Part shown: one piece after another, positions 21,108 through 53,320 of the stretch
How positions within the stretch are numbered: the first letter of the stretch is position 1
Layout of the letters: the number at the start of each line of letters is the position of its first letter
From: Ryuthela nishihirai
Taxonomy: Eukaryota > Arthropoda > Arachnida > Araneae > Heptathelidae
DNA length: 64,000 nt
Direction of reading: 5' to 3'
Assembly (NCBI GenBank): GCA_038380435.1
Contig: JAWZYU010000735.1
Span: forward strand, 1-64,000
Notes under the pieces: model-generated
Seen by the model: only the letters and a program-made list of their open reading frames with translations
Databases searched by the model: none
What the model was told of the DNA's origin: nothing
Program-made: the position numbers and the translations under genes

Positions 21108-23353
21108 CAGGGGTGGGCAAATAGCGGCCCGCTAAGAGTTTTTGTGGCCCGCCAAGACAGTCAGTAAATCCGCCTTGAACCGAGATTTCCTTCCCGTGCG
21201 CGACCGAAGATTCGTCCCGTATTTTCCACTAGGACGGCCACGTCAATACGCATGCGCAGTGTAGATACGATGCGCAGTGCTTTTCCGGTTGATCTGGTTA
21301 ATATCCATTTTGTCTTTGCAACAGTAAATATATAAATTTGCAACTTTAGTGAAACCATGAAACCTCCGAAAAAACGTAAAATCGGTGATGAATGTCGTGT
21401 GTTTAATGAAGAATAGACAAACAAATATTTCTTTGGTAATACAGGGAATAAAGCAGTGTGTTTATTGTGTCATGAAACGATAGCCGTATTTAAGGAGTAC
21501 AATCTGAAACGACATTGCGAAACAAAACATAGCGAATTTGGCTGCAAACTTTCCAAGGAAGAACGCAAAATAAAAGCTGCGGAGTGTGAGAACAGGCTGA
21601 AGAAGCAACAAACATTATTTACAAAGCAATCAACACTTCAAAATAACGCTTCAGAAGCAAGGTTCATAGTAGCCTACAACCTTGCTAAACGCAACAAGCC
21701 TTTTTCGGATGGCGAGTTTATTAAGCAGTGTATGGTAGAGTGTGCAAGCATATTGTGTCCTGATGTTAGAAGCAAATTTGAAAGCATTTCATTGTCAAGA
21801 AGGACTATAGTGCGGCGCATTGACTCAATTAGTGACGAACTCACAGAACAGCTGAAGACTGCGAGCAAAGATTTTGTTTGGTTTTCTTTGGCACTGGATG
21901 AGAGCACAGATAACGAAGACACTGCACAATTACTCATCTTTATCCGTGGAATTAATGAAAATTTCGTCATCACAGAGGAATTACTTGGCCTTGAATCAAT
22001 GAAAGATAGAACCACTGGTCAGGACTTGCTTGAGTGTGCTGTGAATTGTGTGGAGAAAAGTGGCTTGTCCTGGAACAAAATGGTATGGTTAAGCTTTTAA
22101 AAATCAAGTTACAAGCACAAGACACAGACAGTGATATCTTGCCTTTTCATTGCATTTTGCATCAGGAGAGCCTTTGTAAAGCTGCACTGGACTTAAAGCA
22201 TGTGGTAGATCCTATTGTTAGTGTGGTGAACACAATCAGAGCAAGGGCACTCCACCATCGACAGTTCAAATCTTTTCTTGAGGATGTGGAGGCAGAGTAT
22301 GAAGACGTAATTTACCACAACAGTGTGAGGTTGTTGAGCCTGGACAAAGTGATAAAAAGAGTATGGACATTGCAGAATGAAATCCTCTTATTTCTGGATA
22401 CGAAGGAGATATCTCATGATTTTGTTACAAAAATAGGATGTGAGGAGTGGAGATATGAGATGATGTTTGCAGCTGATGTATTTGAGAAATTGAATGAACT
22501 GAATGTGACATTGCAGGGAAAGGGGTTGTTTGCACATGAAATGTGGAAGCATGTAAAATCATTCAAAGCAAAACTAGGTCTATTTGCAAGGCAAGCAGGT
22601 GAAGGCAATTTTTGTCATTTCCCTTTATTAGGAAAACAGAAAGTACCTGAAAGTGTTTTTGCTAAGATTAGGGATCATCTGCAGAGTTTGGAGGACGAGG
22701 TCACAAGAGGATTTCAGGACTTTAAGAAAATTGAGCCTAAATTCAATTTGCTCTCTTATCCCATCACTGCTGATATTGATACAGCACCTGAGGAGCTGCA
22801 GCTTGAACTTATTGACATGCAGTCAGATCACACTGTGAAAGAAATGTTTAATGCTGTAACATTAGTTGACTTTTACAAATCTTTGTCTGCTGAAAAATTT
22901 CCATGTATGAAGAAATTTGCTGGGAAAATGTTCTCTATATTTGGGTATACATATATTTGAGAGCAAAGTTTTTCTTGCTTGAAGATCAACAAGAGTAAAT
23001 ATAGATGCTCTTTGACAGACATTAACTTGCAGGCTGTGATGAAAAACTCAACAAGCAATCTCACTCCTGATTTTCAAAAAATTGAAGAAAAGTGTGATAG
23101 GATACATTTGTCTCATTAAACTGATTCTAAAATTAAATGTGCTTGCAGCTATATGAAATTAGCACAATAAACAAATTGAATAAAACTGCCACTATTTTAT
23201 TTAATTTATATTTATTGATTTTTATGGTACAATTTATACATTTTCTGAAATGCAAAGTTAACTAATGAATGCAATCATTTTAAAAAGTGCGGCCCTCCGC
23301 TAACCTCCGCTTCCACAAAGTGGCCCCCGAGCCAAAACAATTGCCCACCCCTG
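21108..23353 (+). mobile_element. hAT transposon with GTF2IRD2-like transposase, 2,246 bp
   Basis: The element is flanked by an 8-bp target duplication, ttctaaat (21,100-21,107 and 23,354-23,361), and ends in CAGGGGTGGGCAAAT and its partner ATTGCCCACCCCTG. Both subterminal regions contain GGCCC/GGGCC motifs (CGGCCCGCTAAGAG on the left, GCGGCCCTCCGC on the right). The uninterrupted target appears at about 42,875-42,895 (ATCTAAATCATTGGCAACA). One transposase gene fills it. Confidence 0.92.
21357..23119 (+). pseudogene. hAT transposase (GTF2IRD2/ZBED-like), three lesions
   Basis: The first ATG in frame is at 21,357. The frame starts with a basic PPKKRK stretch and then a BED-type zinc finger (Cys35, Cys38, His53, His58). 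The catalytic RNase H-like fold follows, with the first Asp at about codon 181 in LALDEST, and then a long helical region with ILHQESLC. Three defects are seen. A TAG at 21,414 sits where a Trp is expected. A deletion and frame change near 22,080 removes the expected TDGAPAM-type block with the second catalytic Asp. A TGA at 22,958 sits where a Cys codon is expected. After that stop the frame continues in phase for 52 codons through SLTDINLQAVM to TAA at 23,117-23,119. AATAAA signals follow at 23,166 and 23,179. The copy is otherwise well preserved. Confidence 0.88.
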
Positions 23354-23474
23354 TTCTAAATCATTGGCAACAATTGAAAAATAAGTTGCCTCTCATGAAG
23401 TATAGATGGCGCAAGGTCCGCCACATTTCAGTGAAAGATTTATAAGTCTTATCCTGAAAACGTATTTTCGTCTG

Positions 23475-23545
23475 ATGCGTGGTTTTTATGGTAAAGCGAT
23501 CTGGCATGTATCTAGAGAGTTGCGGGTTCGATTCCCGCCATGTCA
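23475..23545 (+). pseudogene. tRNA-like sequence in the composite module
   Basis: About 70 bases, with a box-A-like ATGGTAAAGCGA and a perfect T-arm (GCGGG, TTCGATT, CCCGC). The acceptor stem pairs poorly and the anticodon arm (CTGGCATGTATCTAG region) does not fold cleanly, so a working tRNA is unlikely. The same sequence recurs at 42,996-43,065, with one base changed in box B, and truncated at 54,138-54,177. It is therefore part of the duplicated module rather than an independent gene. Confidence 0.55.
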
Positions 23546-23597
23546 GTAATAATTTTTCAGATGGATAATTCTTGTTTATCATAATTTCCTTATTTCA

Positions 23598-23974: not shown

Positions 23975-23980
23975 GACGTT
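23975..23980. repeat. Target-site duplication, left
   Basis: The sequence gacgtt directly abuts the left end of the 14.65 kb element and is repeated at 38,634-38,639. Uninterrupted versions of the same target (ggttacgtt followed by tgaggttcc or tcaggctcc) occur at about 43,479-43,510 and, in reverse, at about 53,010-53,045 and 61,945-61,980. Confidence 0.9.
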
Positions 23981-24033
23981 AGTAGTTTAGTCACACCATA
24001 CCGAATCCCCTTTGCACAGTGCTTTCCCCCCTA

Positions 24034-24100
24034 TGACGTCATCGACCACGCCCCCTAGGACGTAACATGCCACGCCCCCTATGACGTAACATTACGTAAT
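24034..24100. promoter_or_regulatory. Left subterminal CRE-like and GC-box cluster
   Basis: A perfect TGACGTCA palindrome at 24,034-24,041 is followed by two 24-bp direct repeats (24,046-24,069 and 24,070-24,093), each with CCACGCCCC and GACGTAAC. A TTACGTAA palindrome is next. The right end has the mirror arrangement. Such motifs bind CREB/ATF and C/EBP-like factors in animals. Whether they serve transcription, replication or transposition here is unknown. Confidence 0.6.
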
Positions 24101-24194
24101 ATGATGTAATCATTACATAACCATTACATAACAGGCCACACCCCTTTATTAATAATTGATAATTCTTCCCCCTTTATTAAACCCCCCTTTCACC

Positions 24195-24480
24195 CCCCCT
24201 TTCACCCCAGTGGCGCCATCTGTTGACAGTGAGAAGTACTATTTTCCCAAAAACCCTTTATTTTCACTCTAATTTCTCGTTTTCGGATCCCCCGGTCGAC
24301 CTACCTATATTTTAAGCCCTCCCCCTTATTAAAAACCCTCCTGGCGCCATCTGTTGACAGGGAGAAGTACTATTTTACCGAAAACCCCTTTATTTTCACT
24401 CTAATTTCTCGTTTTCGGACCCCACGGTCGACCTACCTATATTTTAAGCCCTCCCCCTCATGAAAAACCCTCTGGTTGAC
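24195..24480. repeat. Subterminal tandem repeat of about 140 bp
   Basis: Two copies of a unit beginning TGGCGCCATCTGTTGACAG and ending near TTTTAAGCCCTCCCCC. The right arm has the corresponding pair at about 38,125-38,425 in reverse. Confidence 0.8.
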
Positions 24481-24505
24481 CATTTTAAGGCCTCACTCCT
24501 TCACT

Positions 24506-25937
24506 CGGCTGATGCAAGTCTCAGAATAATTGCATGGAACGATTGACTGGTCTTAGAAAAATTGTACAGAAAGGAATGATACAAAATTCCTTAGTAATTA
24601 AACACTCATCAAAAATTCCCTTACCTCTATTAAAAATCATCCTACAGTTGAAACTCATTTTACTCTTACTGTTTCCATAGAAAATACCATAGGGTGAAAT
24701 TAATAATGGTTTAAATTATTCGTAGGGATGACATGTTAAATCTGCTTTTAGAACACACGTCTGCAGTGGAAAAATTTTCAAACTCCGTTAATCAACTCCC
24801 TAGTAATTAAACACTCGTCAAAATATTCCTCACCTTTATTAAAATCACTCCACGGTCGAAATAATAATCGGTTTTCTGTAGATGTGTTTCACCGGAAAAA
24901 AAAAATCGTCCCTCGCTCTGTGGATTCCAGGACTATGCCGTGTACTTGCTGTGGCTTAGATGCGTGTCGAACGGGTCAGATATTAACCTAGCATTCTTTA
25001 TAACTAGCTTTTTCTATGTATTTCTTACATCAAAACCAACACTACCACTGAACGCTTTTGAATGCGGATCTCAAATTGTAAATCAAACTCGCAAAGCTGT
25101 ATTTATTCCACCAAGACGGTTAAATGATTTTCTTATAATTAAAATTCCCGGCTATTAAACTCCCTAGTAATTAAGCACTGGTTAAAATTCCCACATTCAA
25201 AATCGTCCTATAGTCCGGGGCGAATATCGGCTGATGCAAGTCTCAGAATAATTGCATGGAACGATTGACTGGTCTTAGAATAATTGTACAGAAAGGAATG
25301 ATACAAAATTCCTTAGTAATTAAACACTCATCAAAAATTCCCTTACCTCTATTAAAAATCATCCTACAGTTGAAACTCATTTTACTCTTACTGTTTCCAT
25401 AGAAAATACCATAGGGTGAAATTAATAATGGTTTAAATTATTCGTAGGGCATGTTAAATCTGCTTTTAGAACACACGTCTGCAGTGGAAAAATTTTCAAA
25501 CTCCGTTAATCAACTCCCTAGTAATTAAACACTCGTCAAAATATTCCTCACCTTTATTAAAATCACTCCACGGTCGAAATAATAATCGGTTTTCTGTAGA
25601 TGTGTTTCACCGGAAAAAAAAAAAATCGTCCCTCGCACTGTGGATTCCAGGACTATGCCGTGTACTTGCTGTGGCTTAGATGCGGGCCAGACATTAACCT
25701 AGCATTCTTTATAACTAGCTTTTTCTATGTATTTCTTACATCAAAACCAACACTACCACTGAACTCTTTTGAATGCGGATCTCAAATTGTAAATCAAACT
25801 CGCAAAGCTGTATTTATTCCACCAAGACGGTTAAATGATTTTCTTATAATTAAAATTCCCGGCTATTAAACTCCCTAGTAATTAAGCACTGGTTAGAATT
25901 CCCACATTCAAAATCGTCCTATAGTCCGGGGCGAATA
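24506..25937. repeat. 722-bp tandem repeat in the left arm
   Basis: 24,506-25,227 is repeated at 25,228-25,937 with few changes (the unit starts CGGCTGATGCAAGTC). Each copy contains a frame of up to about 89 codons with a hydrophobic stretch (INLAFFITSFFYVFL). In the second copy this frame begins at an ATG at 25,600. In the first copy a different poly-A length breaks its start. A 9-base in-frame gap separates two versions. The right arm has one full and one partial copy at 37,200-38,095. Confidence 0.8.
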
Positions 25938-26248
25938 GCTGTGGAATAGTGCCGTGTTATGATCTGCTCTCAGAAAATTCAAACTCCTTATCGCAAGCGG
26001 TATTCCTTTCAAGTGCTTATCGGGGCTAGCAACAGGACTTTCAAAAACATCACGCGACGTGGTCCAATCTCTGAGGGGTCGAGAGGACAGTGTCCAGCGC
26101 TCGCTTTGTTTACATGTGATACTGATAAGGATTCAAAATAGAAGTTGTCAACATCCCTTGTTTTTCTCTAGAGCGTATGACGGCTCACCCCAGCACATGT
26201 CATGATCAAAGTCGAGTACACAAGGCACGTCAAATAGTGGGAGGAGGG

Positions 26249-26256
26249 TATATACA
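26249..26256 (+). promoter_or_regulatory. TATA box of the 110-codon gene
   Basis: GGGTATATAC lies 64-70 bases before the ATG at 26,319, in an otherwise mixed-composition stretch. The spacing resembles that of the TATA box before the PC4-domain gene of the same element. Confidence 0.5.
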
Positions 26257-26318
26257 CGAGGAACAGTCAAAGAGTTGATATCCTGTGTTCTGTCATAGTT
26301 TTGAAGTCTCTGGCCGCT

Positions 26319-26651
26319 ATGGAGGTAACCTACCAAACATTTTATGAAACAGTTCTTTTTATACATTCGTCTACAGATGTCCTCTCACATCAGAAGGATA
26401 TAACGTATGAGGAATGCCTAGAGACACTGTTGAATGTTTTAACAGCGAAAATGGTGCCCGGGTTGTGTGCTATACGTGACGGTCGAGATGTTGTAATAGA
26501 ACCATATGAAGTGGCCAAGGAGTTTCTATGCCGCGTATGCGGTGCTGAAGTAGCAGCATTAAACCACATCGAAAGAATGGATTACCGAATGGTGATTGAG
26601 GATGCCATAGCCTCAATAGAGACGGTCACCAGTGCAGAAGCTATGGAATAA
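26319..26651 (+). CDS. Small unidentified protein of the palindromic element
   Basis: The first ATG of the frame is at 26,319, giving 110 residues; the frame is open upstream to 26,301 without another ATG. I do not recognise the family. The protein looks globular, is acidic overall, has no signal peptide or membrane segment, and contains a CRVC pair (FLCRVCGAEV) about two thirds along and an acidic C-terminus. It lies in the segment 25,937-26,870 that is present only in the left arm, so unlike most of the element it is single-copy. It has a TATA box about 65 bases upstream, and no obvious AATAAA soon after the stop. Being intact in a region where other frames are broken suggests a real gene. 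Function unknown. Confidence 0.5.
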   Translation: MEVTYQTFYETVLFIHSSTDVLSHQKDITYEECLETLLNVLTAKMVPGLCAIRDGRDVVIEPYEVAKEFLCRVCGAEVAALNHIERMDYRMVIEDAIASIETVTSAEAME

Positions 26652-26869
26652 CTAAAAACAACAAAAGGTTCTTTTCAGGACCACTTCATTTGTGTAGAAA
26701 GGATTATCGATCGTACAATTTCTGTTCACAACCCTTCTCTATACATCTTTCTTCTCTATCACACCCGTTAACAGAGTAAATTTTACAGGAATATTTAACC
26801 TTCAGTATAATTTTACACAGTGTGTTAGGATTAACAACTCTTATAGCATAGTTATTGGCAGTAAGCTCC

Positions 26870-29800
26870 CTCTCTACTTTTAAAATTTAGATCTTACACC
26901 GACAGTCTTTTCACGTACGTATTTTTTATAACCAACACTTATTTCTTTTAGCCCTAGCGATTACTGGTTGTTTCATTTTTTACTAGAAGAAACCCTACCC
27001 CGCAGTAACAGCTCCGCAGAAAATAAAAAATGTCGATGGGTAAAAGAAAACAAAAAATCTGATGTCATGATGAAAAATATTGAGGAGTGATAGGATCGAC
27101 CTAATAGACACCGTGTTCGGATCCTCACCCCGGACAAACGGTTAAGCCCTACGAAATTATTCCAAACGGGGAAGCACACACTTTTATTGACGAATGAATC
27201 TTGGATCTGTACTGCTTCAGGAGCGCTGCCTTTACATTGTGAAAACCCGCTCACACCCTTGATCCGTGTTTAAGTACTCGAAATTTTTAAAGTCCAGAGG
27301 CGGCCCCCACCATTCCCAATTTACTAGTGAAAAAAATATTTTTTGTACGAAGTAGAAAGTAAGAATGTTAAAAGTACGTTGCGTAAAAACTTTAGTTCTA
27401 TCGCTAATACACGTTGATGAGGGTAGGGGGACATTAGTTTTAGCAAATACTTCAACTATAAAAAAATAAGTCTCACTTGAGCGCATCGCTCCCAACTTCT
27501 CTACGCTAATCCGCTGAAATTTTATTTGCAACGGGAGTGATAGACGAAAATACTTCTTCCCTATGTGCTCTGACCAGCGCCTGAAATGTTCGCCCCCCCC
27601 CCACCCTACTGCTTCAACCCTCGTTTCGACACTCCCGCTCTATGTGATCTGCACGACGCGCTGATAACGTACAAAGGCCACTGGAGGAGCGGTGGTCAGC
27701 CCCTGTTGAATGCTATCTTTTTTTTATTTCCAGCCGCAATAATACACCGTTTTTGTGGAACACTGGTGACTTCGCCGCAAAGGGTGATCCACACTAAAAA
27801 ACAAATCCCATAGACAATAAAGAACTAAAAAAGTCATTAAAACAGTGAATGGACTTATGTACAGAGATTGACAACGGTAATATAGACAGGAACCCATCGC
27901 TCACTATCACAGCCCCCGAGAAATTATCAAATCTGTAAAGGTCTGGCCACACAATCTTCTGAGTTAATTCTGGACGGATCACAAGGACTTTTTCTCACAT
28001 TCGTTAATCAAAGTGTCTACGCATCAGACTTGTCATTACCCCGACAAACTATCCATAGACTGAGTAAGCATTTAGAATGAAAAATTCAGTTTGCTTCAGT
28101 GTCACAGCTTTAATTTTCAGATGCACTCCACAGATTCGTAAAACACTCATTAGGTATGCGTTCACAAGAGAGTTCATCACGGATTCATCTTCCCTATCTT
28201 TCTAATAAATCATACGCCCAAAGTAGATAATTATATTACGAAAATATAATCGATTTTAAGTGATTCCGTATTCGTAATTTATTAATGCTAAAGAATCACG
28301 ACGAAAATCTCACAATAGTCTACCCAATACTTTACCATAGCCGATACAGTCACAAGTTACGATAGTCAGCATCTGCTCCCATAGACCAGGGACGCGTGAA
28401 TAGCTACCCGTGGGTCGCATTCGGCCCGCTAAGAGTTTTTTGTTGCCCGCCAAGACAGAAAAATTCTCCCCGAGCGCGACCGAAGATTCGTCTCGTATTT
28501 TCCATTAGGACGGTCACGTCAATATGCATACGAAGTGTATGAAAACAATTGTCCACTCCGGCCATAGACAGTAGGTTAGTTACTTCTAACAAAGTCAAGG
28601 TTTGAGATCCATAGTAAGACACGAATGTTACCGAACGCCTATGTCGTGTGAATGATAACTGTTAAGACAGCTAGTTGCATATTTTTTTAAAGATATGTCG
28701 AATGCACTTTTACATGAACGAAGCTTCCATTTCCTAAAGTGTGGGGGGGGAAAGCGTGAACAGTCAATGCTGACTGCATGAAATATGACTCGAACGAAAG
28801 ACAATCTGAACAGGTGCTTTTGTTTATAGTATTTCCGTGAAAAGTTGGGGAAGCCAGATGCGACTTAGCTTTGCGTTCACTGACTTCACGCCTACCCCCT
28901 TTGCAATTAGGAAAAAACTCTCGAGAGCAAATTATATCTAAAACCAGTTTCACTTGAGTTTTTCGTAACCCTCTTGTGCCGTCGAACTAAGATTCAGACA
29001 TTCAGCTGTCGGGCATAAGGTTAAACTAATTTCTTACCACGGTACGTTTGCGCAGCTGCAAACACAAGTCTTTCGACAAAAGATAAGATGTTTCGCTACA
29101 ACATAACACGGAGATGTCTGCTTAGTTATTTTTCCCTATTTCAACACTGTCTATGGAGCATTACGCCTCTACATACCATAACACCTCGCGATTCTAAGCG
29201 TTCCCCGAACCGATATTAATCTTATTTTTGTAGTTCAACGGAGTTTTTTGAGTTTGCTCAACCTATGTCAAGGGTTGGACCAGTGCTTGCACCGATGGGG
29301 GGCGGACCAGCAGCGATGTTATTGCTCGTACTAGCAGAACCGGTACAAGGCGAATGCAAATCGGTTCATATCTCTATTCTTTCGAACACAAATGTTAAAA
29401 GATTTCATGTAGCAGCTAAGAAACAGTAAAAAAGTGATTTTCCGCATTTAACCATCTATCGGGTAGAGGAATCCTCAAAACTAAGTAACAATACTAGAAA
29501 AATCACTATCCATAACATTTACATTCATGTATTTCTTGTTGCGAGGCATCTGACCGAAACGTTAGCATTCATTACCTCAAAACAGATAAGACAGAATGCG
29601 GCGTCTTGAAAAACACCAAGAAGGCTAGTAACCACGGTTTAACCATTCATTTTTTAAGTATTAGGACGTTCATGTTACAATTTCTTGCAACAACGTTCAT
29701 TTCTGGTAAAGATGCATGTCAGCGCATTCACTTTACGTGTGTGATTTCAATCGTGTGTGAACCAGGCATTCAGTTGAGAAGAGTATGTGAATCAGTCACT

Positions 29801-30506
29801 TCAGAATACTAACACCTTTGCGCGCTCACTGAAACTACCTCCTTCTTGTGTCTCTCCATATACTATTCTTATGAGCACAAAAGATAGGATGTTTCACTAC
29901 AATCTAACACGGAGATGTCTGTTTAGTTATTTTTTCCTCCTATTTCTACACCAGTGTGGAAGTCTTAGAACAAGTGGTTAGCACACGTTTTTAATATGTA
30001 TCTTGTTTAGAAATCTGAAAGAACACTGTCTATGGAACATTACCCCCTTGCAAGCTAGTACTAATTACTTCACGATTCTGAGGGACGAAGGTTGTAATCG
30101 TTGGCGGATATTTTTCAGAAATATGTAATCAACCATAGTGTTCGGATATTTGATCCATAGTAAGACATGAACGTTGTTTACCTCCCATCGACAATCCCTT
30201 CTACGGATCGTATGAGAGATGACTGTTACGACAATTAGCAGGGTGAAATCGTATTTGTTTTTAAAAGCAGACACACACTACCGACTAGCTAGAGAACGAT
30301 ATATTAACCTGCTAAAGTTTGATTTTAACGATCAGATATACCATCACTTTTTTAGTTCATACTAATATTCCAACTTTTAAAGGAAATATTGTCTCGTTAT
30401 AAGCGATTACATGCACACTCTATACTTTAAATCTATAGAGACAGTGATCACTAAACATGGAACACATCTGTGAAATATCACAACATTTTTGTTTTAAACG
30501 CACGGT
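26870..30506. repeat. Inner inverted repeat, left arm of the palindrome
   Basis: This aligns in reverse complement with 31,990-35,575 almost without gaps: paired positions sum to about 62,470-62,496 along 3.6 kb, so net indels are only about 25 bp. Short frames are present in both arms (for example 27,586-27,813 and 34,641-34,883), but none is recognisable as a protein. The arm contains a shared hAT MITE. Confidence 0.9.
28387..28561 (-). mobile_element. hAT-derived MITE in the left arm, 175 bp
   Basis: The element is flanked by ccatagac (28,379-28,386 and 28,562-28,569). Its interior shares the CGGCCCGCTAAGAGTTTTT, GCGCGACCGAAGATTCGTC and CCATTAGGACGG blocks with the left end of the hAT element at 21,108. 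Its far end resembles the hAT right end (AAAACAATTGTCCACTCC). It is an internally deleted relative with weakly matching termini. Confidence 0.8.
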
Positions 30507-30723
30507 TGAATCGTTCTCTAGCTAGCTTTGGTTTCATTATGAGTGTGTTTTTTAAGATACTTTTGAAATACTCTGTTAATGAATTCAACCCCCCTTATCT
30601 GTTTGTAATTTCAGAGATATTCTGAAAGGTTTTTGTGATCAAAAGCTCCCACGATTTCCGTTTTAAAGGAGCACCACATGTATATTTCGAAAGCACGTCT
30701 ATACAGGCTCGTAAATATTTGTA

Positions 30724-30818
30724 GACGTCATCATGTTTACTAAGAGATGGCAAATCTACCAGATCTCGACCAATGGGATGGAGTTACAGGGACACGTCAC
30801 AGGTTTAAGGTATAAGTA
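30724..30818 (+). promoter_or_regulatory. Putative promoter of the PC4-domain gene
   Basis: A GACGTCA half-palindrome at 30,724-30,730 and ACACGTCAC near 30,792 precede a TATA-like TATAAGTA at 30,811-30,818. The last lies 51-58 bases before the ATG at 30,869. The CRE-like words echo those at the element termini. Confidence 0.45.
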
Positions 30819-30868
30819 TTACCCTTCGACGGGCTGTAAGGCATTATTTTTTCCAGTATCGACTTGCT

Positions 30869-31147
30869 ATGGCTTGTGCTAAACGTTCCCTGACCGATGG
30901 TGATCTTCCTGCGAAGCGACTTGCTGTTAGAGATGATGATAGCCATATGTTTCAACTCGGATCGGATTTGTTTGCGAGCGTTTGTGAATATCGGTCATAT
31001 CCTAAAGTGCACATACGTGTGTTCCAGAGTGATGACTCGTTAAAACTATATCCTACAAAGGACGGTGTGATGCTGTCTGAAGAGCAGTGGCATGGACTGG
31101 TTACGTATGCGTCTACAATCGTCGAAGCGTTCGAAGATGTCGAATAA
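30869..31147 (+). CDS. PC4-like domain protein, first half
   Basis: An ATG in context GCTATGG starts a 92-codon frame. The N-terminal 25 residues are basic and charged with two AKR motifs (a possible nuclear signal). Residues 30-88 match the transcriptional coactivator p15/PC4 fold pattern: a strand with KVHIRVF, a turn, LYPTKDGVMLS, then EEQWHGL and a helix. PC4 domains bind single-stranded DNA. The frame ends in TAA at 31,145-31,147, but the following frame is in the same phase and begins a second PC4-like domain only a few codons later. The two were therefore probably one gene of about 300 codons. It lies in the single-copy loop of the palindrome. The family call is from the pattern, not a search. 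Confidence 0.7.
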   Translation: MACAKRSLTDGDLPAKRLAVRDDDSHMFQLGSDLFASVCEYRSYPKVHIRVFQSDDSLKLYPTKDGVMLSEEQWHGLVTYASTIVEAFEDVE

Positions 31148-31168
31148 GGCGAGTATGAACTGGACGCT

Positions 31169-31771
31169 ATGGTTTGCCTCGTCGTGCTCAAAGGTGGACA
31201 CGGCGTGGTCATTAAAAAAAGCATCCCCCGTGGCGGAGGACTTGTATTTTCGTCATCGGTTCGGCTCAGCGTCGAACAGTGGCATCGGTTGACAGATTTA
31301 TGCGATCCAATCACCTACAGTTTGATGGCTCTGAAGTTTGAAAACGGTAAATTTTGGAATGCAGTGCGGAAGGTGGAATTAGCGGCAAATCTTCCTCGAA
31401 GCCCACCATCTAACGATCGACCCCTTGAACAAGACAGCAGTGATTTCGTAAAGCTTATGGACTGTTTAAAGCGGACTTTGAAAACAGATCTCCGAAAAGA
31501 ACTGTTTACGCTGCTACGTAAGAACTGTTTCGGGTGTGAAGTGAATCATCCGAGTCAACTTCGCCATTCGTGCCTCACCATAAACGCTGAATCAGCTTAC
31601 GATTATTTCCCCGAAGTGGTAAGAAACGTTAATCTAACTGATATTGCCGTAAGTTTTGTGGAAGAATCATGTATCGAACTAAATCGTCCTGCTAATGTCG
31701 CGTTTATGTCTAAATTGAACTTTGCAACCGTACTAAAAGAGGTGCACAGTGAACTGGTATGTACGAACTAA
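31169..31771 (+). CDS. Second PC4-like domain plus Cys/His domain protein
   Basis: 200 codons from the ATG at 31,169, in phase with the preceding frame and separated from it by one TAA and seven codons. Residues 1-55 repeat the PC4-like pattern (HGVVIKKSIP, SSSVRLSVEQWHRLTDL), though weaker than in the first half. Residues 56-115 form a linker with a proline-rich patch and a charged helix. Residues 120-135 carry a compact Cys/His motif (Cys120, Cys123, His127, His133, Cys135) around HPSQ, which could bind a metal. I do not know its function. A polyadenylation signal AATAAA lies at 31,794-31,799, 23 bases after the stop. It may be translated separately, by readthrough, or be the 3' half of a broken gene. 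Confidence 0.65.
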   Translation: MVCLVVLKGGHGVVIKKSIPRGGGLVFSSSVRLSVEQWHRLTDLCDPITYSLMALKFENGKFWNAVRKVELAANLPRSPPSNDRPLEQDSSDFVKLMDCLKRTLKTDLRKELFTLLRKNCFGCEVNHPSQLRHSCLTINAESAYDYFPEVVRNVNLTDIAVSFVEESCIELNRPANVAFMSKLNFATVLKEVHSELVCTN

Positions 31772-31793
31772 ATATTAATGTGACCTTAATGTA

Positions 31794-31799
31794 AATAAA
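31794..31799 (+). terminator. Polyadenylation signal of the PC4-domain gene
   Basis: AATAAA lies 23 bases after the stop codon at 31,769-31,771 and before the palindrome arm resumes at 31,990. It is the only strong signal in the loop. Confidence 0.55.
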
Positions 31800-31989
31800 T
31801 ATGAATGTCTCTGATATTTTTGTCAATGTGATTTCTTTTGTATAGTTAACGGGGATTTTAAGGTCAGCCTTAGAAGTGTTAATATTGTTCTCTGTATCAA
31901 GACTTCGCACAGCTAGCAAGCTATGTTGGGTCGAATGTTTTATATCAGGTGTAAAAGAAAGGGATGGGAGACCAAAGCTAGCATCGTAG

Positions 31990-34900
31990 ACCGTGTGTTA
32001 AAAACAAAAATGTTGTGATATTTCACAGATGTGTTCCATGTTTAGTGATCGCTGTCTCTGTAGATTTAAAGTATAGAGTGTGCATGTAATCGCTTATAAC
32101 GAGACAATATTTCCTTTAAAAGTTGGAATATTAGTATGAACTAAAAAAGTGATGGTATATCTGATCGTTAAAATCAAACTTTAGCAGGTTAATATATTGT
32201 TCTCTAGCTAGTCGGTAGTGTGTCTCTGCTTTTAAAAACAAATACGACTTCACCCTGCTAATTGTCGTAACAGTCATCTCTCATACGATCCGTAGAAGGG
32301 ATTGTCGATGGGAGGTAAACAACGTTCATGTCTTACTATGGATCAAATATCCGAACACTATGGTTGATTACATATTCTGAAAAATATCCGCCAACGATTA
32401 CAACCTTCGTCCCTCAGAATCGTGAAGTAATTAGTACTAGCTTGCAAGGGAGGGGGTAATGTTCCATAGACAGTGTTCTTTCAGATTTCTAAACAAGATA
32501 CATGTTAAAAACGTGTGCTAACCACTTGTTCTAAGACTTCCACACTGGTGTAGAAATAGGAAGAAAAAATAACTAAACAGACATCTCCGTGTTAGATTGT
32601 AGTGAAACATCCTATCTTTTGTGCTCATAAGAATAGTATATGGAGAGACACAAGAAGGAGGTAGTTTCAGTGCAAGTATTCTGAAGTGACTGATTCACAT
32701 ACTCTTCTCAACTGAATGCCTGGTTCACACACGATTGAAATCACACACGTAAAGTGAATGTGCTGACATGCATCTTTACCAGAAATGAACGTTGTTGCAA
32801 GAAATTGTAACATGAACGTCCTAATACTTAAAAAATGAATGGTTAAACCGTGGTTACTAGCCTTCTCGGTGTTTTTCAAGACGCCGCATTCTGTCTTATC
32901 TGTTTTGAGGTAATGAATGCTAACGTTACGGTCAGATGCCTCGCAACAAGAAATACATGAATGTAAATGTTATGGATAGTGATTTTTCTAGTATTGTTAC
33001 TTAGTTTTGAGGATTCCTCTACCCGATAGATGGTTAAATGCGGAAAATCACTTTTTTACTGTTTCTTAGCTGCTACATGAAATCTTTTAACATTTGTGTT
33101 CGAAAGAATAGAGATATGAACCGATTTGCATTCGCCTTGTACCGGTTCTGCTAGTACGAGCAATAACATCGCTGCTGGTCCGCCCCCCATCGGTGCAAGC
33201 ACTGGTCCAACCCTTGACATAGGTTGAGCAAACTCAAAAAACTCCGTTGAACTACAAAAATAAGATTAATATCGGTTCGGGGAACGCTTAGAATCGCGAG
33301 GTGTTATGGTATGTAGAGGCGTAATGCTCCATAGACAGTGTTGAAATAGGGAAAAATAACTAAGCAGACATCTCCGTGTTATGTTGTAGCGAAACATCTT
33401 ATCTTTTGTCGAAAGACTTGTGTTTGCAGCTGCGCAAACGTACCGTGGTAAGAAATTAGTTTAACCTTATGCCCGACAGCTGAATGTCTGAATCTTAGTT
33501 CGACGGCACAAGAGGGTTACGAAAAATTCGAGTGAAACTGGTTTTAGATATAATTTGCTCTCGAGAGTTTTTTCCTAATTGCAAAGGGGGTAGGCGTGAA
33601 GTCAGTGAACGCAAAGCTAAGTCGCATCTGGCTTCCCCAACTTTTCACGGAAATACTATAAACAAAAGCACCTGTTCAGATTGTCTTTCGTTCGAGTCAT
33701 ATTTCATGCAGTCAGCATTGACTGTTCACGCTTTTCCCCTCACACTTTAGGAAATGGAAGCTTCGTTCATGTAAAAGTGCATTCGACATATCTTTAAAAA
33801 AATATGCAACTAGCTGTCTTAACAGTTATCATTCACACGACATAGGCGTTCGGTAACATTCGTGTCTTACTATGGATCTCAAACCTTGACTTTGTTAGAA
33901 GTAACTAACCTACTGTCTATGGCCGGAGTGGACAATTGTTTTCATACACTTCGTATGCATATTGACGTGGCCGTCCTAATGGAAAATACGAGACGAATCT
34001 TCGGTCGCGCTCGGGGAGGATTTTTCTGTCTTGGCGGGCAACAAAAAACTCTTAGCGGGCCGAATGCGACCCACGGGTCGCTATTCACGCGTCCCTGGTC
34101 TATGGGAGCAGATGCTGACTATCGTAACTTGTGACTGTATCGGCTATGGTAAAGTATTGGGTAGACTATTGTGAGATTTTCGTCGTGATTCTTTAGCATT
34201 AATAAATTACGAATACGGAATCACTTAAAATCGATTTTATTTTCGTAATATAATTATCTACTTTGGGCGTATGATTTATTAGAAAGATAGGGAAGATGAA
34301 TCCGTGATGAACTCTCTTGTGAACGCATACCTAATGAGTGTTTTACGAATCTGTGGAGTGCATCTGAAAATTAAAGCTGCGACACTGAAGCAAACTGAAT
34401 TTTTCATTCTAAATGCTTACTCAGTCTATGGATAGTTTGTCGGGGTAATGACAAGTCTGATGCGTAGACACTTTGATTAACGAATGTGAGAAAAAGTCCT
34501 TGTGATCCGTCCAGAATTAACTCAGAACATTGTGTGGCCAGACCTTTACAGATTTGATAATTTCTCGGGGGCTGTGATAGTGAGCGATGGGTCCCTGTCA
34601 ATCTCTGTACACAAGTCCATTCACTGTTTTAATGACTTTTTTAGTTCTTCATTGTCAATGGGATTTGTTTTTTAGTGTGGATCACCCTTTGCGGCGAAGT
34701 CACCAGTGTTCCACAGAAACGGTGTATTATTGCGGCTGGAAATAAAAAAAAGATAGCATTCAACAGGAGCTGACCACCGCTCCTCCAGTGGCCTTTGTAC
34801 GTTATCAGCGCGTCGTGCAGATCACATAGAGCGGGAGTGTCGAAACGAGGGTTGAAGCAGTAGGGTGGGGGGGGGGCGAACATTTCAGGCGCTGGTCAGA

Positions 34901-35575
34901 GCACATAGGGAAGAAGTATTTTCGTCTATCACTCCCGTTGCATATAAAATTTCATCGGATTAGCGTAGACAAGTTGGGAGCGATGCGCTCAAGTGAGACT
35001 TATTTTTTTTATAGTTGAAGTATTTGCTAAAACTAATGTCCCCCTACCCTCATCAACGTGTATTAGCGATGGAACTAAAGTTTTTATGCAACGTACTTTT
35101 AACATTCTTACTTTCTACCTCGTACAAAAAATATTTTTTTCACTAGTAAATTGGGAATGGTGGGGGCCGCCTCTGGACTTTAAAAATTCCGAGTACTTAA
35201 ACACGGATCAAGGGTGTGAGCGGGTTTTCACAATGTAAAGGCAGCGCTCCTGAAGCTGTACAGATCCAAGATTCATTCGTCAATTAAAGTGTGTGCTTCC
35301 CCGTTTGGAATAATTTCGTAGGGCTTAACCGTTTGTCAGTGAAAAGTTGTCCGGGTCCTCAATATTTTTCATCATGACATCAGAGTTTTTGTTTTCTTTT
35401 ACCCATCGACATTTTTTATTTTCTGCGGAGCTGTTACTGCGGGGTAGGGTTTCTTCTAGTAAAAAATGAAACAACCAGTAATTGCTAGGACTAAAAGAAA
35501 TAAGTGTTGGTTATAAAAAATACGTACATGAAAAGACTGTCGGTGTAAGATCTAAATTTTAAAAGTGGAGAGGGA
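31990..35575. repeat. Inner inverted repeat, right arm of the palindrome
   Basis: Reverse-complement partner of 26,870-30,506. Small differences such as homopolymer lengths and single bases show it is not an exact copy, which argues against an assembly artefact. Confidence 0.9.
33923..34097 (+). mobile_element. hAT-derived MITE in the right arm, 175 bp
   Basis: The mirror of 28,387-28,561, with the same length and the same 8-bp flanks in reverse (gtctatgg at 33,915-33,922 and 34,098-34,105). Because the insertion site is identical, both arms descend from one arm that already carried the MITE, or one arm was copied onto the other later. Confidence 0.8.
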
Positions 35576-37199
35576 TCCTGCCAGAATTAGGCATCTACAG
35601 TAAAATGAACTCCGAAGATTGTACATTCAGACCTCTGTTCATCTTTGATAATTTTCGCAAGCATCGAGGGTTATGATAGAGAAAGCAAGCTTGAAGTGAG
35701 AACGTATAAGGATGTTAATACTATCGCCTAACAAAAGACGCCTGGGATATTGCTAAAGATTTTCGTATTTTTCCACGGAATTATACGGTGCACATCTTTT
35801 CTAATGTCCGAGGTCGAATTCTATTTTTCCTGAGTCGAACCATAACCTTTTAACTCATATTGGAACTAAAGTTTTTTACGGAAACGCATGAATTCTATTT
35901 TTAGCATTCCGCCACATAGATTTAGCACTTCTCCGAGGAGTCGGTCATAAGGTGTGTCAACTCAATTTTAAGTGATCTAATAAGGTTCCAGCTATATTTC
36001 ATAACCTAAAGGACATCTGCAGAGAATCGGTATTAATCCCAATAATATGGAAAAAGCAACAATCTCCCTTTGAATTTCATAGATTCCTATTTTTAAGTGC
36101 GTCTATCAGCAGAAGAATTCCTTCTGTATTTCGAGAGGAAACAGTAATTATTTAACTTTCCCATTAGGTTTTCGGACGGACCCGCCACTCTTCTCAAAGA
36201 CGCAGCATTCCACCGTTGACCTTTGCACACCACCCCACTTGTTGCTATGGTTCACCAGATCACATGGGGATGAGTGTACAAGTTGTCGAAACGGGTTAGA
36301 AGGTCGTCTCTCTTGTAAGCAGTAGGCGCGATCAGAGCATACATGTCAGTTAAGCGGTTTCGTTTGCTAAATTTTGGCTATCAGCCCCGTTGCATATATT
36401 TTTTCAGTGGATTAGTTGAGGTAAGTTGAGAGGGTGCGTGAAGCAATGTATTATTTTTATAGTCGAAGTTTTAAACTAATGTTCCCCTACTCCGTTAATA
36501 TGCATTCATGATGAAAGTTTTTTAGCATTCTTACTTTCTATAACATTCTACCTCGTACAAAAAGTTATTTTTTACCCGATTTCATCAGCGTGATGAGACA
36601 TACGCTCGCACGCAAACGATGGGAGAGACGATTTTTCTTCGGTGTTGCGTTACTGCGTGGAAACACAGATATCTGACGGCACCAACCCGATGGAGACTAA
36701 TACGCTCAACTCTTGAAGGTTTAGGGCGCATAATTTCAAAAGTCTACATGCGGTGCATTGAAACCTATCATAAAGGGTTGTGCAGAGAACCGTCTCCGGA
36801 CTTGGGAAAATATCGAGTCCGAAATCCACGATAAAGAGTGCCCGTGAGTTTTCACGATGTAAGACAGCGCTCCTGAAGCAGCACAGATTCATTCGTCAAT
36901 TTGATCCCACGTTTGGAATTTTTTATTTTCGTAGGACTTAACCATCTGTCAGTGAAACGTTGTCCGGGGTGAGGATCCGAACACGGAGTCTATTAGGTCG
37001 ATCCTATCACTCCTCAATATTTTTCATCACGACGAATAAAATCAGATTTTTTACCCATCGGCATTTTCTGCGGGACAGTCTTTTAAAAATAGTTACTGTG
37101 GATAGATCTAGTAAGCGACAGTCACGGAGTTAAAAGAAATAAGTGTTACTGAAACGGACTTAAAATACGTAAGTTATAAAAATACGTATATTAATGTGA
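35576..37199. repeat. Right-arm-specific segment with an internal duplicate
   Basis: This replaces the left-arm segment that carries the 110-codon gene. The part from about 36,360 to 37,100 is a diverged, broken second copy of 34,900-35,500, in the same orientation (compare TTCCCCTACTC near 36,483 and AGCGCTCCTGAAGC near 36,866). The rest, 35,576-36,360, shows nothing recognisable. An ATG frame of 71 codons at 36,619 is not conserved elsewhere. Confidence 0.65.
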
Positions 37200-38633
37200 A
37201 AGGACTATCGGGTTTTGGTGTAAGAAATACATAGAAAAAGATAGTTATAAAGACTGCTGGGTCTGAAATGTCTGACCCGCATCTAAGCCACAGCACGTAC
37301 ACGGTATAGTCCTGGAATCCACAGAGCGATGGACGATTTTTTTTTTTCCGGTGAAACACATCTACAGAAAATTGATTTTTATTTCGACCGTGGAGTGATT
37401 TTAATAAAGGTGAGGAATATTTTGACGAGTGTTTAATTACTAGGGAGTTTAATAGCTGGGAATTTTAATTATAAGAAAATCGTTTAACCGTCTTGGTGGA
37501 ATAAATACAGCTTTGCGAGTTTGATTTACAATTTGAGATCCGCATTCAAAAGCGTTCAGTGGTAGTGTTGGTTTTGATGTAAGAAATACATAGAAAAAGC
37601 TAGTTATAAAGAATGCTAGGTTAATGTCTGACCCGTTCGACACGCATCTAAGCCACAGCATGTACACGGCATAGTCCTGGCATCCACAGAGCGAGGGACG
37701 AATTTTTTTTTTCCGGTGAAACACATCTACAGAAAACCGATTTTTATTTCGACCGTGGAGTGATTTTAATAAAGGTGAGGAATATTTTGACGAGTGTTTA
37801 ATTACTAGGGAGTTGATTAACGGAGTTTGAAAATTTTTCCACTGCAGACGTGTGTTCTAAAAGCAGATTTAACATGTCATCCCTACGAATAATTTAAACC
37901 ATTATTAATTTCACTCTATGGAAACAGTAAGAGTAAAATGAGTTTCAACTGTAGGATGATTTTTAATAGAGGTAAGGGAATTTTGATGAGTGTTTAATTA
38001 CTAAGGAATTTTGTATCATTCCATCCTGTACAATTATTCTAAGACCAGTCAATCGTTCCATGCAATTATTCTGAGACTTGCATCAGCCGAGTGAATGAGT
38101 GGGGCCTTAAAATGGTCAACCAGAGGGCTTAAAATATAGGTAGGTCGACCGTGGGGTCCGAAAACGAGAAATTAGAGTGAAAATAAAGGGTTTTTGGGAA
38201 AATAGTACTTCTCACTGTCAACAGATGGCGCCACTGAGGGGAAAGGGGGGTGAAAGGGGTTTAATAAAGGGGGATAGCTTAAAATATAGGTAGGTCGACC
38301 GGGGGGTCCGAAAACGAGAAATTAGAGTGAAAATAAAGGGTTTTTGGGAAAATAGTACTTCTCATTGTCAACAGATGGCGCCACTGAGGAGAAAAGGGGG
38401 GTGAAAGGGGGGTTTAATAAAGGGGGAGGAATTATTAATTATTAATAAAGGGGCGTGGTCGGTTACGTAATGATTATGTAATGATTATGTAATGATTATG
38501 TCATATTACGTCATAGGGGCGTGGCCTGTTACGTCATAGGGGCGTGGCCTGTTACGTCATGGGTGGTGGTCGATGACGTCATAGGGGGAAAGCACTGTGC
38601 AAAGAGGAATCGGTATGGTGTGACTAAACTACT
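37200..38633. repeat. Outer inverted repeat, right arm of the palindrome
   Basis: Reverse complement of 23,981-25,935, with one full and one truncated copy of the 722-bp unit instead of two. The terminal 200 bases hold three GGGGCGTGG boxes, several TTACGTCA words and a perfect TGACGTCA at 38,574-38,581. Confidence 0.85.
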
Positions 38634-38639
38634 GACGTT
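38634..38639. repeat. Target-site duplication, right
   Basis: Second copy of gacgtt, followed by TCAGGCTCATCCGTGAACAA, which continues the target module interrupted at 23,980. Confidence 0.9.
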
Positions 38640-40344: not shown

Positions 40345-42995
40345 AAATCTGTTTGAAGGAAATCAAAACAGCTGATATTACATTATTCTCGCTAACCCGA
40401 CTTTCGATACAACGGATTCTTATATTTCTATTTTATTCTGTCCATTCTAAGTGAAATAATCTCAAATAAAGGGAACGACTGCAGGAAAAGAAAATGCGTA
40501 AGGCTGCCAATATTCTCAAGAATCTGACATTGAATAGAATGAACGTTTAAAAGGTACTTTTCTTATAAAGGAAAAAATCGGGAATCAAACGAATGAATTA
40601 CGGGAAATCAAAACAACCGATATTAAGAGATTATTCTCGCTAATCAGACTTTCGATTCCATCCGATTTCTGTTCCATTCTTTTTATATTTCTGTTCCATT
40701 TCTCTTCGTTCCAAGTAAAACGATCTGGAAAAAATATAACATACCATAGAAAACCAAACTCTGTAAGACAATTAATATTCTCATTAAGTCAGCGTAAAAT
40801 AAAAGTACATTTTGAAGGTACTTTTTTTTTCCTATAGATACAGGCAGAAATCCAAAAACATATAAAAGCAAATCATAACATCCACAAAAATTTATATTTA
40901 TTCTCGGAATTCAGGCTTTGCTCGAAACGGGTTTTCACGTATTAATTTCATTATGTTTCTTCTAAACGGAACAATCTTACGTCAAAGGAAAGGAGCTGCA
41001 GGAACGTAATCAGTATAAGAATTTTGTATTCTCACAAATCCTACATTGAATAAAATGAAAATCCTTTCCTTTCTTTTCTGAATCGAATATTAAAGGAATG
41101 CTTTTCGGAAACTAAACCAACAGGCATTTACAAGTATTTTAGCTAATCTGTGATTAATGACGCATTTGTCTCTATTCTCTATAATAAGACATTGATTAAA
41201 ATATATTAATTGATTATTTGTAATCGAAGGAACCCAGGAAAGAAACTGTAATGCACAACATTTATTCAATCTGGGCGTTTACTCATTAAAGCTTGCACAT
41301 CTACTTTGTCTAATCTGATACTCCAGTACATTGAATTTTTTTAAAACTCATTTGAATGAATCTATCTGATATTATATTTTACGCATTTCACTACGTGAAC
41401 GATAATTTTTACTTTCTTTGACTGAATTTGATTGAAACGAATTTTATTTTTCAAGTCAATTTCCTGAACAAAAAAGGTAGGGTTGTCAAAAGAGGGCACG
41501 AGAGGAAAAAGAAAGAAATTAGAACTGCAAATACTCCACTAGTACGTAATTAAAAAATAAACAATGATATTTTTTTCTTTGTTTAAACAATTAGAAATGC
41601 AGAGGGAATTATAAACTTCCGATATAACACCAATTTTTTCTTACTCCACTTTTAACGAATCTTTGAATCTATTTTTTCGAGTCCAATATATCAAAGCAAT
41701 CGATATTTTTAAAGCATATTTTCTGAATAGAACACTCAGAAATCGAACCAAAACATAACAAGATATGGAACAGCCGATGCTTACAATGGTTTACTCTGAT
41801 AAAACTGGTTTGGAGAACATTTTTTTCAATTTCCATTCCTTTTAAACGAAACATCACACTACTGACGAGCAGCAGTCTTAAATAGCTGACTAGATCACGT
41901 AGTGATGCATGTGATGTCGTATTTTGCATATACGCTGCGCAAGTGACGTTTACGTACATCTGCAAAAAGTTTTCTAATTGAGTGACAGTGTGTATATATT
42001 GTCTGTTTCAATTTCCTGCGTGACATCCCTTGATTGCCGTTAATTATTTTAAAAAAACTAAAATAATATTTATGAACGTTTCAATGAAAGATTCAATGAA
42101 GGAAAAAGATTCATTGGAAGTAAAAATCGTTGCATTGAATGTCGGTTTAGTGAGCATGCTGATTTCTTCTCTATTTGGTTTCCCTATACTGAGTTATTTC
42201 GTTTCACTTTGCTTCATTTAGTTGATGCAGGAAAGAATATAAAAATACGTTATAACTGAGGTTGGATAACCGAAAATAAATCTCAATATCGCCTGTTTCG
42301 ATTTTCTGTAATACATTTGATAAATTTCCAATTGCTTCTATTACAAGCAACGGATTTTCAAAATATTTATTTTATTCACTAAAGGGAATACTGGTAGTTT
42401 TATGCATTCTCGTGTCCTTTAGTCGTTCCTTTTATTTGAGATTGTTTGACTGAAAACCAAGAGAATCGAAAAAAAAAATTAAGAATCCGTTTAAATGAAA
42501 ATTGTATCAGCCAGAAAAATTCTCGATATTGGCTGGTTGGATTTTCTATGATACACTCAGTTGTTTCCAATTGTTTCTTTTACAATTTTTTCTTTTAAAT
42601 TTCCTTTTAATTAGTGATTTATTAGTGAGAAAATCAGAAAATCATTTGAAACTTTGTTTTAAGTAGGGCATTTCTTTCATTTTTCGTTTACTACGTTTAA
42701 AAGGAACAGACTTCGTAAAAATTCTGCCATAGTGAGGTGTCGGATTAAAGAGGATACATGCAAATCCTATATAGAAAAACGGATTAAGGAGAATAGATAC
42801 AAATACCGCAATGCGTTCACATAACTTAGAATTATTTCGGTCAGAACGCTTAAGAGTGAGTGGCCTCCACATTATAATCTAAATCATTGGCAACAATTGG
42901 AAAATAAGATGTCTTTCGTGAAGAATAGATGGCGCAAGGTCCACCACATTTCAAGAACATTTTAAAGTCTTATCCTGGATGCGTAGTATCGTCTA
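40345..42995 (+). repeat. AATCCG monomer array, block 4
   Basis: About 22 diverged monomers of 115-125 bp with the AATCCG/AACGGAT motif pair at their starts. The monomer order matches that in blocks 3 and 5 and, in reverse, those at 53,320-57,580 and 62,125-64,000. No protein-coding signal was seen. Confidence 0.8.
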
Positions 42996-43065
42996 ATGCG
43001 TGGTTTTTATGGTAGAGCGCTCTGGTGTGTATCTAGAGAGTTGCGGGTTCCATTCCCGCCATGTC
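42996..43065 (+). pseudogene. tRNA-like sequence in the composite module, copy 2
   Basis: Same as at 23,475. Here the A-box-like part reads ATGGTAGAGCGC, closer to a real box A, but box B has a G-to-C change (GGTTCCATTCC). The T-arm stem GCGGG/CCCGC is retained. Probably not functional. Confidence 0.5.
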
Positions 43066-43114
43066 AGTAATAATATTTCAGATGGATAATTGTTATTTCT
43101 CATCATTTCCTTAT

Positions 43115-43260
43115 TTCAACCCAATTGTCATATCCTCGCAATTGTGCTCCATCTAATTGTCCACCCAATTGTCTGATCCTCCCAATTATTGCATCCACCC
43201 AATTGTCGCACTTCCAGCAGTTATCCACCCAGATGTCTTCCACCCAATTGTCCCGCTCCC
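43115..43260. repeat. CAATTG-rich minisatellite
   Basis: Irregular units of the CCCAATTGTC type directly after the tRNA-like sequence. Absent from the right arm of the inverted duplication because of the 930-bp deletion. Confidence 0.75.
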
Positions 43261-43269
43261 ATGTATAAT

Positions 43270-44640: not shown

Positions 44641-45521
44641 ACTGTTGTATCATACTGAATAATGAAAAAGGCCTGTCTGTGGAATTTTATGCTCAATGTT
44701 GCGATAGCTATGTGGTACCTTAGAAGGTTATGATCTGAAAGAATCTCGACATGAGATCCATATAACAAGGTCCAAAAAATTTTCTAGCCACCCCTCTCCT
44801 CTTTCTCTCCCCCCCCCCCCCCACACACACACAACCACCATCATCATCACATATCTGCTAGGTTCCGTCGAAATAAAGGCGATGGGATGTTCTTGTTCCT
44901 GGGCTTCACTCTGAGAGATACATGCGCAGATGCATTTCAATGCAGAATATAAGGTCACCCAGGATCAGGCGTGTTGCATTCTGCTGCCTCGTAGAACTCC
45001 CCCCCCCCCCCCGCCTTCAGTACCTTGAATGCCTTATCTGCTTCTTCGCACCATTGCAACTGTGCAGGTGCCTGGTTCAGAATCATGTCTGTGAGTGGTT
45101 TTGCAATCTCTTCATCTGATCTAGGTAGTGTCGGTAATATCCGAAGAGTACTAATATGCTCTCCAATTCCATCTTTATTCGAAGAGCTTTCATCTTTCTG
45201 ATGACCTCCAGTTTTGCCGTCTAGTAGTCTAGTCTAGTTTTTCCTCTAGTTTATCCTCCCAGCTGTTCGAAAAAGAAAGCTATATCATCTATATATGTAC
45301 AGCAATAATGAACATGGGGCGTAATTATGGTATTCACAATTTTCTGGAAAAATGCCCCAGAGCTCTTCAGCCCGAAGGGAAGCGCTTCCAACTCTGCGTG
45401 TCACGAATACTGTGTAACCTTTACTACAGGGGCTCTCGCTAAGCCAACTCTCGTCCCTCATTTAAATGAGCTATATATTTAATTCAATATGCTTTTACAA
45501 AACACAGAGGATGAAGAGAAC
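44640..45521 (-). pseudogene. Ty3/gypsy pol fragment a (RT-RNase H)
   Basis: On the minus strand this shows the end of a reverse transcriptase domain and part of RNase H, including EAQEQEHPIAFIS, with many frameshifts. A GGT/GT/G-run microsatellite (44,808-44,850) splits the RNase H part. It is the mirror copy of fragment d in the long inverted duplication. No integrase, protease, gag or LTR was recognised nearby. Confidence 0.75.
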
Positions 45522-53265: not shown

Positions 53266-53320
53266 GACAATTGGGTGGAAGTCAACTGGGTGGATAACAA
53301 CTGAAAGTTGTTATCCACCA
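53265..53320. repeat. CAATTG-rich minisatellite, short
   Basis: Three units of the GACAATTGGGTGGAAG type at the junction between the module segment and the array. Confidence 0.6.

Follow-up and report, generated by a model that had tools for sequence, protein, structure and literature searches.

The locus described here raises the question of what kind of mobile element can combine intact ends and a clean target duplication with an interior built of large inverted repeats. It occupies positions 23,975 to 38,639, flanking duplications included, of a 64,000-nucleotide stretch of the genome of Ryuthela nishihirai (Araneae; Heptathelidae), namely positions 1 to 64,000 of the forward strand of contig JAWZYU010000735.1 (assembly GCA_038380435.1), which is called the window throughout. 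We consider it probable that the element is a non-autonomous derivative of a Maverick/Polinton-type linear DNA virus or transposon, that it was moved in trans and that its inner arms arose by fold-back copying.

The element was inserted as a single unit with exact bounds. It comprises positions 23981-38633 (14,653 bases) and is flanked on both sides by GACGTT, a 6-bp target site duplication without strand assignment whose copies, identified by flank comparison, lie at 23975-23980 and 38634-38639. The 17-bp end is present at one plus-strand site (23981-23997) and one minus-strand site (38617-38633), and the window has no further site even when 3 mismatches are tolerated. By chance a mean of 0.12 matches is expected, and two or more matches were reached in 2/100 shuffles. 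Over their terminal bases the two ends share 24 identical positions. For the empty-site test, the flanks were joined with a single GACGTT kept, and the resulting 600-bp query was aligned across the window. The joined flanks align unbroken through the junction at 52784-53308 on the minus strand (85.6% identity), at 43202-43710 on the plus strand (82.2%) and at 61741-62117 on the minus strand (82.8%), where the alignment is shorter and takes in query positions 147-540. In all three empty copies the target site reads TACGTT, a single base off GACGTT. As the copies near 43.5 and 61.9 kb both sit within a 98% inverted duplication, they are not independent. The first-pass annotation of this DNA had named inverted ends, direct GACGTT flanks and at least three uninterrupted copies of the target, and had taken them to define the insertion exactly. 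Ends, flanks and straight-through target copies indeed agree, with two of the three copies being near-duplicates of each other.

Two observations concern the target repeat itself. A second large inverted repeat in this region pairs 40523-45522 with 59944-64000 and reaches the end of the window; its identity is 99.4% along 1.88 kb and 98.3% along 2.2 kb, and 42400-43326 is unpaired. A weak tRNA-Thr-like sequence at 23472-23547 (29.4 bits in Rfam against a gathering score of 29) is perhaps the head of a short interspersed nuclear element in the target repeat.

The ends point to the Maverick/Polinton group. They read AGTAGT...ACTACT, i.e. (AGT)2//(ACT)2. Vertebrate Mavericks, as described in excerpts of PMC8097293, have 6-bp target duplications and the end motifs (AGT)2//(ACT)2, (AG)3//(CT)3 and (AC)3A//T(GT)3, the first of which is the commonest. 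In intact copies, according to the same excerpts, the terminal repeats measure 46-1,447 bp and whole elements 12,723-24,620 bp, and the 1.2-kb terminal repeat and 14.65-kb length found here lie inside these vertebrate ranges. Thus, the element has both the 6-bp duplication of this group, with GACGTT on either side and empty sites that read through, and terminal inverted repeats with a listed motif, the listed motifs being vertebrate ones. The earlier comparison had cited 6-bp duplications and 5'-AG ends; the likeness extends to the whole six-base motif and to repeat and total length. A new class with the same target size, suggested as an alternative, is not needed.

Self-alignment resolved the interior into two nested inverted repeats. 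The left outer terminal inverted repeat (23981..25188, plus strand) starts with AGTAGTTTAG and the right one (37419..38633, minus strand) ends with CTAAACTACT. This outer repeat of about 1.2 kb has 49 mismatches in 1173 aligned columns (95.8% identity, gap columns excluded). The inner repeat of about 3.6 kb, with its left arm at 26867..30506 (plus strand) and its right arm at 31990..35575 (minus strand), has 62 mismatches in 3597 columns (98.3%, gap columns excluded), a count for which the aligned stretches extend 23-24 bp further into the loop. The central loop (30507..31989, no strand) measures about 1.48 kb, as originally described. Outer and inner repeats together account for 9,649 of the 14,653 bases (66%). 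On the left they are separated by a tandem duplication (711 bp) and unique DNA (929 bp), on the right by 1,843 bp. The duplication (25227..25937, plus strand) repeats 24505-25226, which is the inner part of the left outer repeat, in tandem at 97.1% identity and is confined to the left side. For the adjoining left middle segment (25938..26866, no strand) a right-side counterpart was not found: comparison of 25938-26866 with 35576-37210 gave a local score of 28 in either orientation, and 4/60 shuffles scored as high in each. The right middle segment (35576..37418, no strand) contains a partial copy of the subterminal repeat (37211-37418) and, at 36372-37033, a diverged but collinear copy of 34920-35378 from the right inner arm, which is about 68-73% identical with a score of 131 (shuffle maximum 31, 0/60). 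Judged from its sequence, the latter would fit either an old duplication or the recombination of this element with a related one. The unrelated middle segments between outer and inner repeats rule out the two continuous arms of about 6.5 kb that had been proposed. Of the description as nearly palindromic, the pairing of outer and of inner repeats stands; the palindrome is interrupted, and only about 66% of the element takes part in it.

A short piece, 76-78% alike, occurs in both inner arms (28422-28539 and 33945-34062) and in the left flank (21125-21263). Since it is present at all three places, it probably predates the duplication of the arms.

Divergence is distributed unevenly in both repeats. 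In the outer repeat, the first 450 columns, i.e. the tandem-repeat-rich tips, contain 35 mismatches and the following 723 columns 14, so that the excess divergence is concentrated in the tips. In the inner repeat, 18 mismatches fall into the outermost 300 columns, 10 into the innermost 100 and 34 into the intervening 3197. With tips and edges removed, the outer repeat (14/723) compares with the inner repeat (34/3197) at p 0.06, the cuts being post hoc and taken from 100-column counts. A common age of outer and inner repeats is allowed by these counts, not proven, and the same pattern could also have come from gene conversion between the arms once the element was inserted.

Such conversion is part of the rival explanation that survives best, although we regard it as unlikely: the element would be derived from a Maverick, and its inner repeat would have been produced by host repair after insertion, through foldback inversion, break repair and later conversion between the arms. 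Foldback inversions via single-strand hairpins are known in yeast (excerpts of PMC7467729), there are further inverted repeats within the same window, and the body of the inner arms is least diverged (34/3197) with more divergence at the edges (18/300 and 10/100), as gene conversion can give. However, the inner repeat lies wholly inside the element, and host repair would take a separate event to remove the core genes.

The absence of recognisable core genes was seen in Pfam scans of the whole element in six frames, with stops read as X and matches considered up to E 0.1. PC4 was the sole family detected (E 4e-6). The scans matched neither a Maverick polymerase nor a retrovirus-like integrase, nor a packaging ATPase, cysteine protease or capsid, with the proviso that old decayed remnants may escape Pfam. 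To this extent the supposed loss of the core genes is borne out. Because polymerase, integrase, ATPase, protease and capsid genes were all missing from the matches, we class the element not among Mavericks in the strict sense but as non-autonomous DNA that has Maverick ends and was most likely moved by Maverick enzymes from another copy.

Its PC4 unit lies in the loop, inside the large inverted repeat. An open reading frame (ORF) of 92 codons (30869..31144, plus strand), preceded by TATAAG at 30811, carries the PC4 (transcriptional coactivator p15) domain in Pfam with E 3.3e-8, above the curated cut-off, and matches solved PC4 structures with E 7e-5 to 3e-4. It is followed in frame, after a single stop (31145-31147), by an ORF of 200 codons (31169..31768, plus strand) with AATAAA at 31794. 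Sequence comparison revealed a second PC4-like motif near the start of this ORF, as the motif VxLSxEQWHxL of PC4 recurs there (BLASTP E 0.006; 4/1000 shuffles as good); Pfam did not recognise it. The two ORFs may be separate genes or the parts of a single broken one. Given the TATAAG and AATAAA signals, the loop unit looks compact and gene-like.

The failure of the six-frame Pfam scans to recognise a Maverick gene would also suit an unrelated DNA transposon, a foldback-type member of another superfamily, with 6-bp duplications, long inverted repeats and Maverick-like ends acquired by chance. Long-armed foldback elements do exist in other superfamilies. We nevertheless find this explanation improbable: at equal base frequencies, the chance of matching one of two common six-base end motifs is about 1 in 2000, and the match coincides with the right duplication length. 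The two superfamilies that were compared, by description, do not fit. IS3EU/GingerRoot elements combine 6-bp duplications with TA..TA or TG..CA ends (excerpts of PMC10045372), and the ends here are AG..CT. Dada elements, according to the excerpts of PMC3706591, sit in small RNA genes with 6-7-bp duplications, and Dada-U6 and Dada-U1 have sub-terminal inverted repeats only, terminal ones being absent. The present element has terminal repeats of 1.2 kb and was inserted about 430 bp from the sole tRNA-like sequence found in the window. Least credible of all is an assembly artefact in which the inner arms are a mis-joined inverted copy. In its favour, the neighbourhood is repeat-rich and was seen as assembly sequence; against it, the arms carry different bases at 62 of 3597 columns and have indels as well, all of them unevenly distributed, the loop spans 1.48 kb, the DNA bordering the arms differs between the two sides, and the outer ends have a matching duplication and clean empty sites.

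How could a Maverick derivative with fold-back arms have come about? The protein-primed polymerase of a helper Maverick would use the jumping-back mechanism at the repeated AGT ends to copy the element, which the retrovirus-type integrase of the helper would join to the chromosome. In adenoviruses and tectiviruses, end repeats make the jumping-back step of protein-primed replication possible, and Mavericks are expected to resemble them in this (excerpts of PMC8097293). During strand-displacement copying, the growing or displaced strand would fold back and be copied into its mirror image, yielding two arms around a loop and discarding the core genes. By analogy, we liken this step to the asymmetric snapback genomes with a single-strand loop that are described for adeno-associated virus (excerpts of PMC8235507). 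The middle segments would have come to differ later, on the left through a tandem duplication and on the right either through an old duplication or because the element recombined with a related one. Of the inverted dimer formed by fold-back replication, as envisaged in the first-pass annotation, the inner repeat fits and the unrelated middle segments do not; because of them at least one further rearrangement is needed beyond a simple dimer. In short, the element may preserve, in fossil form, a defective virus genome that had been copied back onto itself.

Several points weigh against this derivation. A simple inverted dimer predicts related middle segments, and the left and right ones are unrelated. 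The window carries other large inverted repeats, so that host processes may also form palindromes here. Taken as a whole, outer and inner repeats have diverged unequally (49/1173 vs 62/3597, p 6e-6). In the window and in the protein and viral-contig collections, neither a helper nor a second copy nor a gene-bearing relative was found. The CpG ratio is a yardstick for a heavily methylated vertebrate genome, and the observed/expected value of 0.89 for the window (flanks 0.78 and 0.92, element 1.03) is unlike such a genome; the documentation of the end motif, in the excerpts of PMC8097293, is vertebrate. Finally, core-less or degraded Mavericks, as they appear in the excerpts of PMC8097293 and PMC8504770, need no special mechanism.

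A more tentative extension, which we rate well below the derivation itself, is that the palindromic form constitutes a transmissible family. As a satellite or defective-interfering parasite of Mavericks, it would keep the ends, a self-complementary body and a PC4-type gene for single-strand DNA binding or transcription, and would spread with the enzymes of its helper, which its long hairpin transcripts or its ends might dampen.

The tips of the outer repeats are rich in tandem repeats. The left outer repeat has tandem units with GC-box-like and CRE-like words at its tip (24027-24120) and two 132-bp units (24211-24472); in the right one, units of 23 bp are repeated in tandem at 38506-38587, and a 150-bp unit occurs twice at 38127-38427. 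The two tips hold 3 and 5 CRE-like TGACGTMA words, whereas 500 simulated sequences averaged 0.022 and never exceeded 2; these counts cover both strands with palindromic words counted twice, the simulations were drawn from the left tip, and tandem repeats make the counts non-independent. All four CAACAGATGGC words of the window, which we take to be a CTCF-like motif and thus predicted sites only, lie in the outer repeats, two per end (24213-24356 and 38219-38381). The tips may be regulatory. Neither the 24-bp end nor a tip unit had a match in viral contigs. The lone viral-contig match to the 17-bp end (L001) was judged to be due to chance, as the sequence beyond the 17 bases differs.

The coding capacity of the element was assessed by comparing the longest stop-free run of each segment with 200 Markov simulations per segment. 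The 207-codon run of the loop was reached in 0/200 simulations. Runs as long as those of the left middle segment (7/200) and of the right outer repeat (4/200) were borderline, and those of the left outer repeat with its duplication (56/200), the inner arms (21/200 and 106/200) and the right middle segment (97/200) were within chance. The run of the left middle segment corresponds to an ORF of 110 codons (26319..26648, plus strand) with TATATA at 26249 and weak coding evidence. Neither a recognised domain nor a relative of it was found in Pfam or in viral contigs, a poly(A) signal was not found in 26601-27000, and it bears no likeness to the two loop ORFs (443/500 and 428/500 shuffles as good). 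Relatives of the ORFs were sought in protein and viral-contig collections whose coverage of animal genomes is uncertain. From the protein collection, the loop gene with X at its stop drew 1847 word-sharing candidates, none at E 0.001, the 200-codon ORF 157, none at E 1, and the 92-codon ORF a single one, not at E 0.01. Pattern matching in the viral contigs returned 5 stretches for the 207-codon run and 3 for the 110-codon ORF, none of them confirmed as a relative. A Cys/His motif guessed from the 200-codon ORF matched no viral contig. Single-sequence structure predictions reached a mean pLDDT of 33.5 for the 200-codon and 51.5 for the 110-codon ORF, and for the former a comparison with solved structures yielded nothing up to E 10. 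When seven ORFs were scanned singly against Pfam, PC4 was found in one. Two others gave matches below the cut-offs only, YfjS_YafY (E 0.22) in one and ThrE_2 (E 0.11) together with Neil1-DNA_bind (E 0.2) in the other, and these were rejected.

Outside the element, two overlapping ORFs of 227 and 308 codons lie in the left flank (21417-22957). The first matches the Spin-doc zinc finger, with a BED-finger and DUF4371 below cut-off, and the second matches no Pfam family; presumably they represent a hAT-type transposase. Elsewhere in the window there are a 1.9-kb inverted repeat (10284-12190 and 12816-14712; 91.7% identity, loop of 626 bp), a pair of direct repeats (1-1899 and 3987-5894; 95.5%) and a 410-bp tandem duplication (58189-59008; 99.0%).

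Degraded Mavericks are common in themselves; the unusual part is the combination of intact ends and duplication with a large inner palindrome. No comparable element was among the matches listed in the open-licence literature, and a 'non-autonomous' or 'nonautonomous' Polinton or Maverick was not found there, subscription journals and repeat databases being outside the scope of this search. Mavericks are known mostly via gene-bearing copies or decayed remains. If our derivation is true, a copy that has lost the core genes but kept its ends, and that contains a large inner palindrome, would suggest that the replication and integration machinery of Mavericks can work in trans. It would also suggest that Mavericks throw off snapback genomes like other linear DNA viruses, leaving a fossil in the chromosome, and their defective-genome biology would become testable via shared ends.

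Parts of this architecture recur in adeno-associated virus, a parvovirus with its own hairpin-end replication, and in Galileo-like foldback transposons. With Galileo, compared by architecture only, the element shares very long inverted repeats that enclose a small unique centre; unlike the element, Galileo belongs to the P superfamily. In the snapback subgenomes of adeno-associated virus, too, the arms are self-complementary, a unique loop is present in some, and the viral ends are of a single kind (excerpts of PMC8235507), but these subgenomes are packaged in particles, whereas the present element is integrated with its own target duplication. Teratorn, a virus-transposon hybrid, also has long inverted repeats beside a unique region, yet differs by its size of 41-182 kb, a piggyBac-like transposase, herpesvirus genes and 18-bp terminal repeats (excerpts of PMC6431247). 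Maverick/Polinton elements, including adintoviruses, agree in the 6-bp duplication, the (AGT)2//(ACT)2 ends, terminal repeats up to the kilobase scale and a length of about 15 kb (excerpts of PMC8097293). In contrast to them, the present element is without a recognisable polymerase, integrase, ATPase, protease or capsid domain, and has a 3.6-kb inner inverted repeat and a PC4-domain gene; in the open-licence literature PC4 was not found linked with polinton or with adintovirus. Loss of coding capacity is the rule in degraded Maverick copies as well (excerpts of PMC8097293 and PMC8504770). Most vertebrate copies are degraded, 2,166 of them without discernible terminal repeats (excerpts of PMC8097293), and the 408 midge copies are fragments with a polymerase or integrase domain only (excerpts of PMC8504770). 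Here, a polymerase or integrase remnant was not recognised, whereas the ends and the duplication are intact and the interior is a large inverted repeat.

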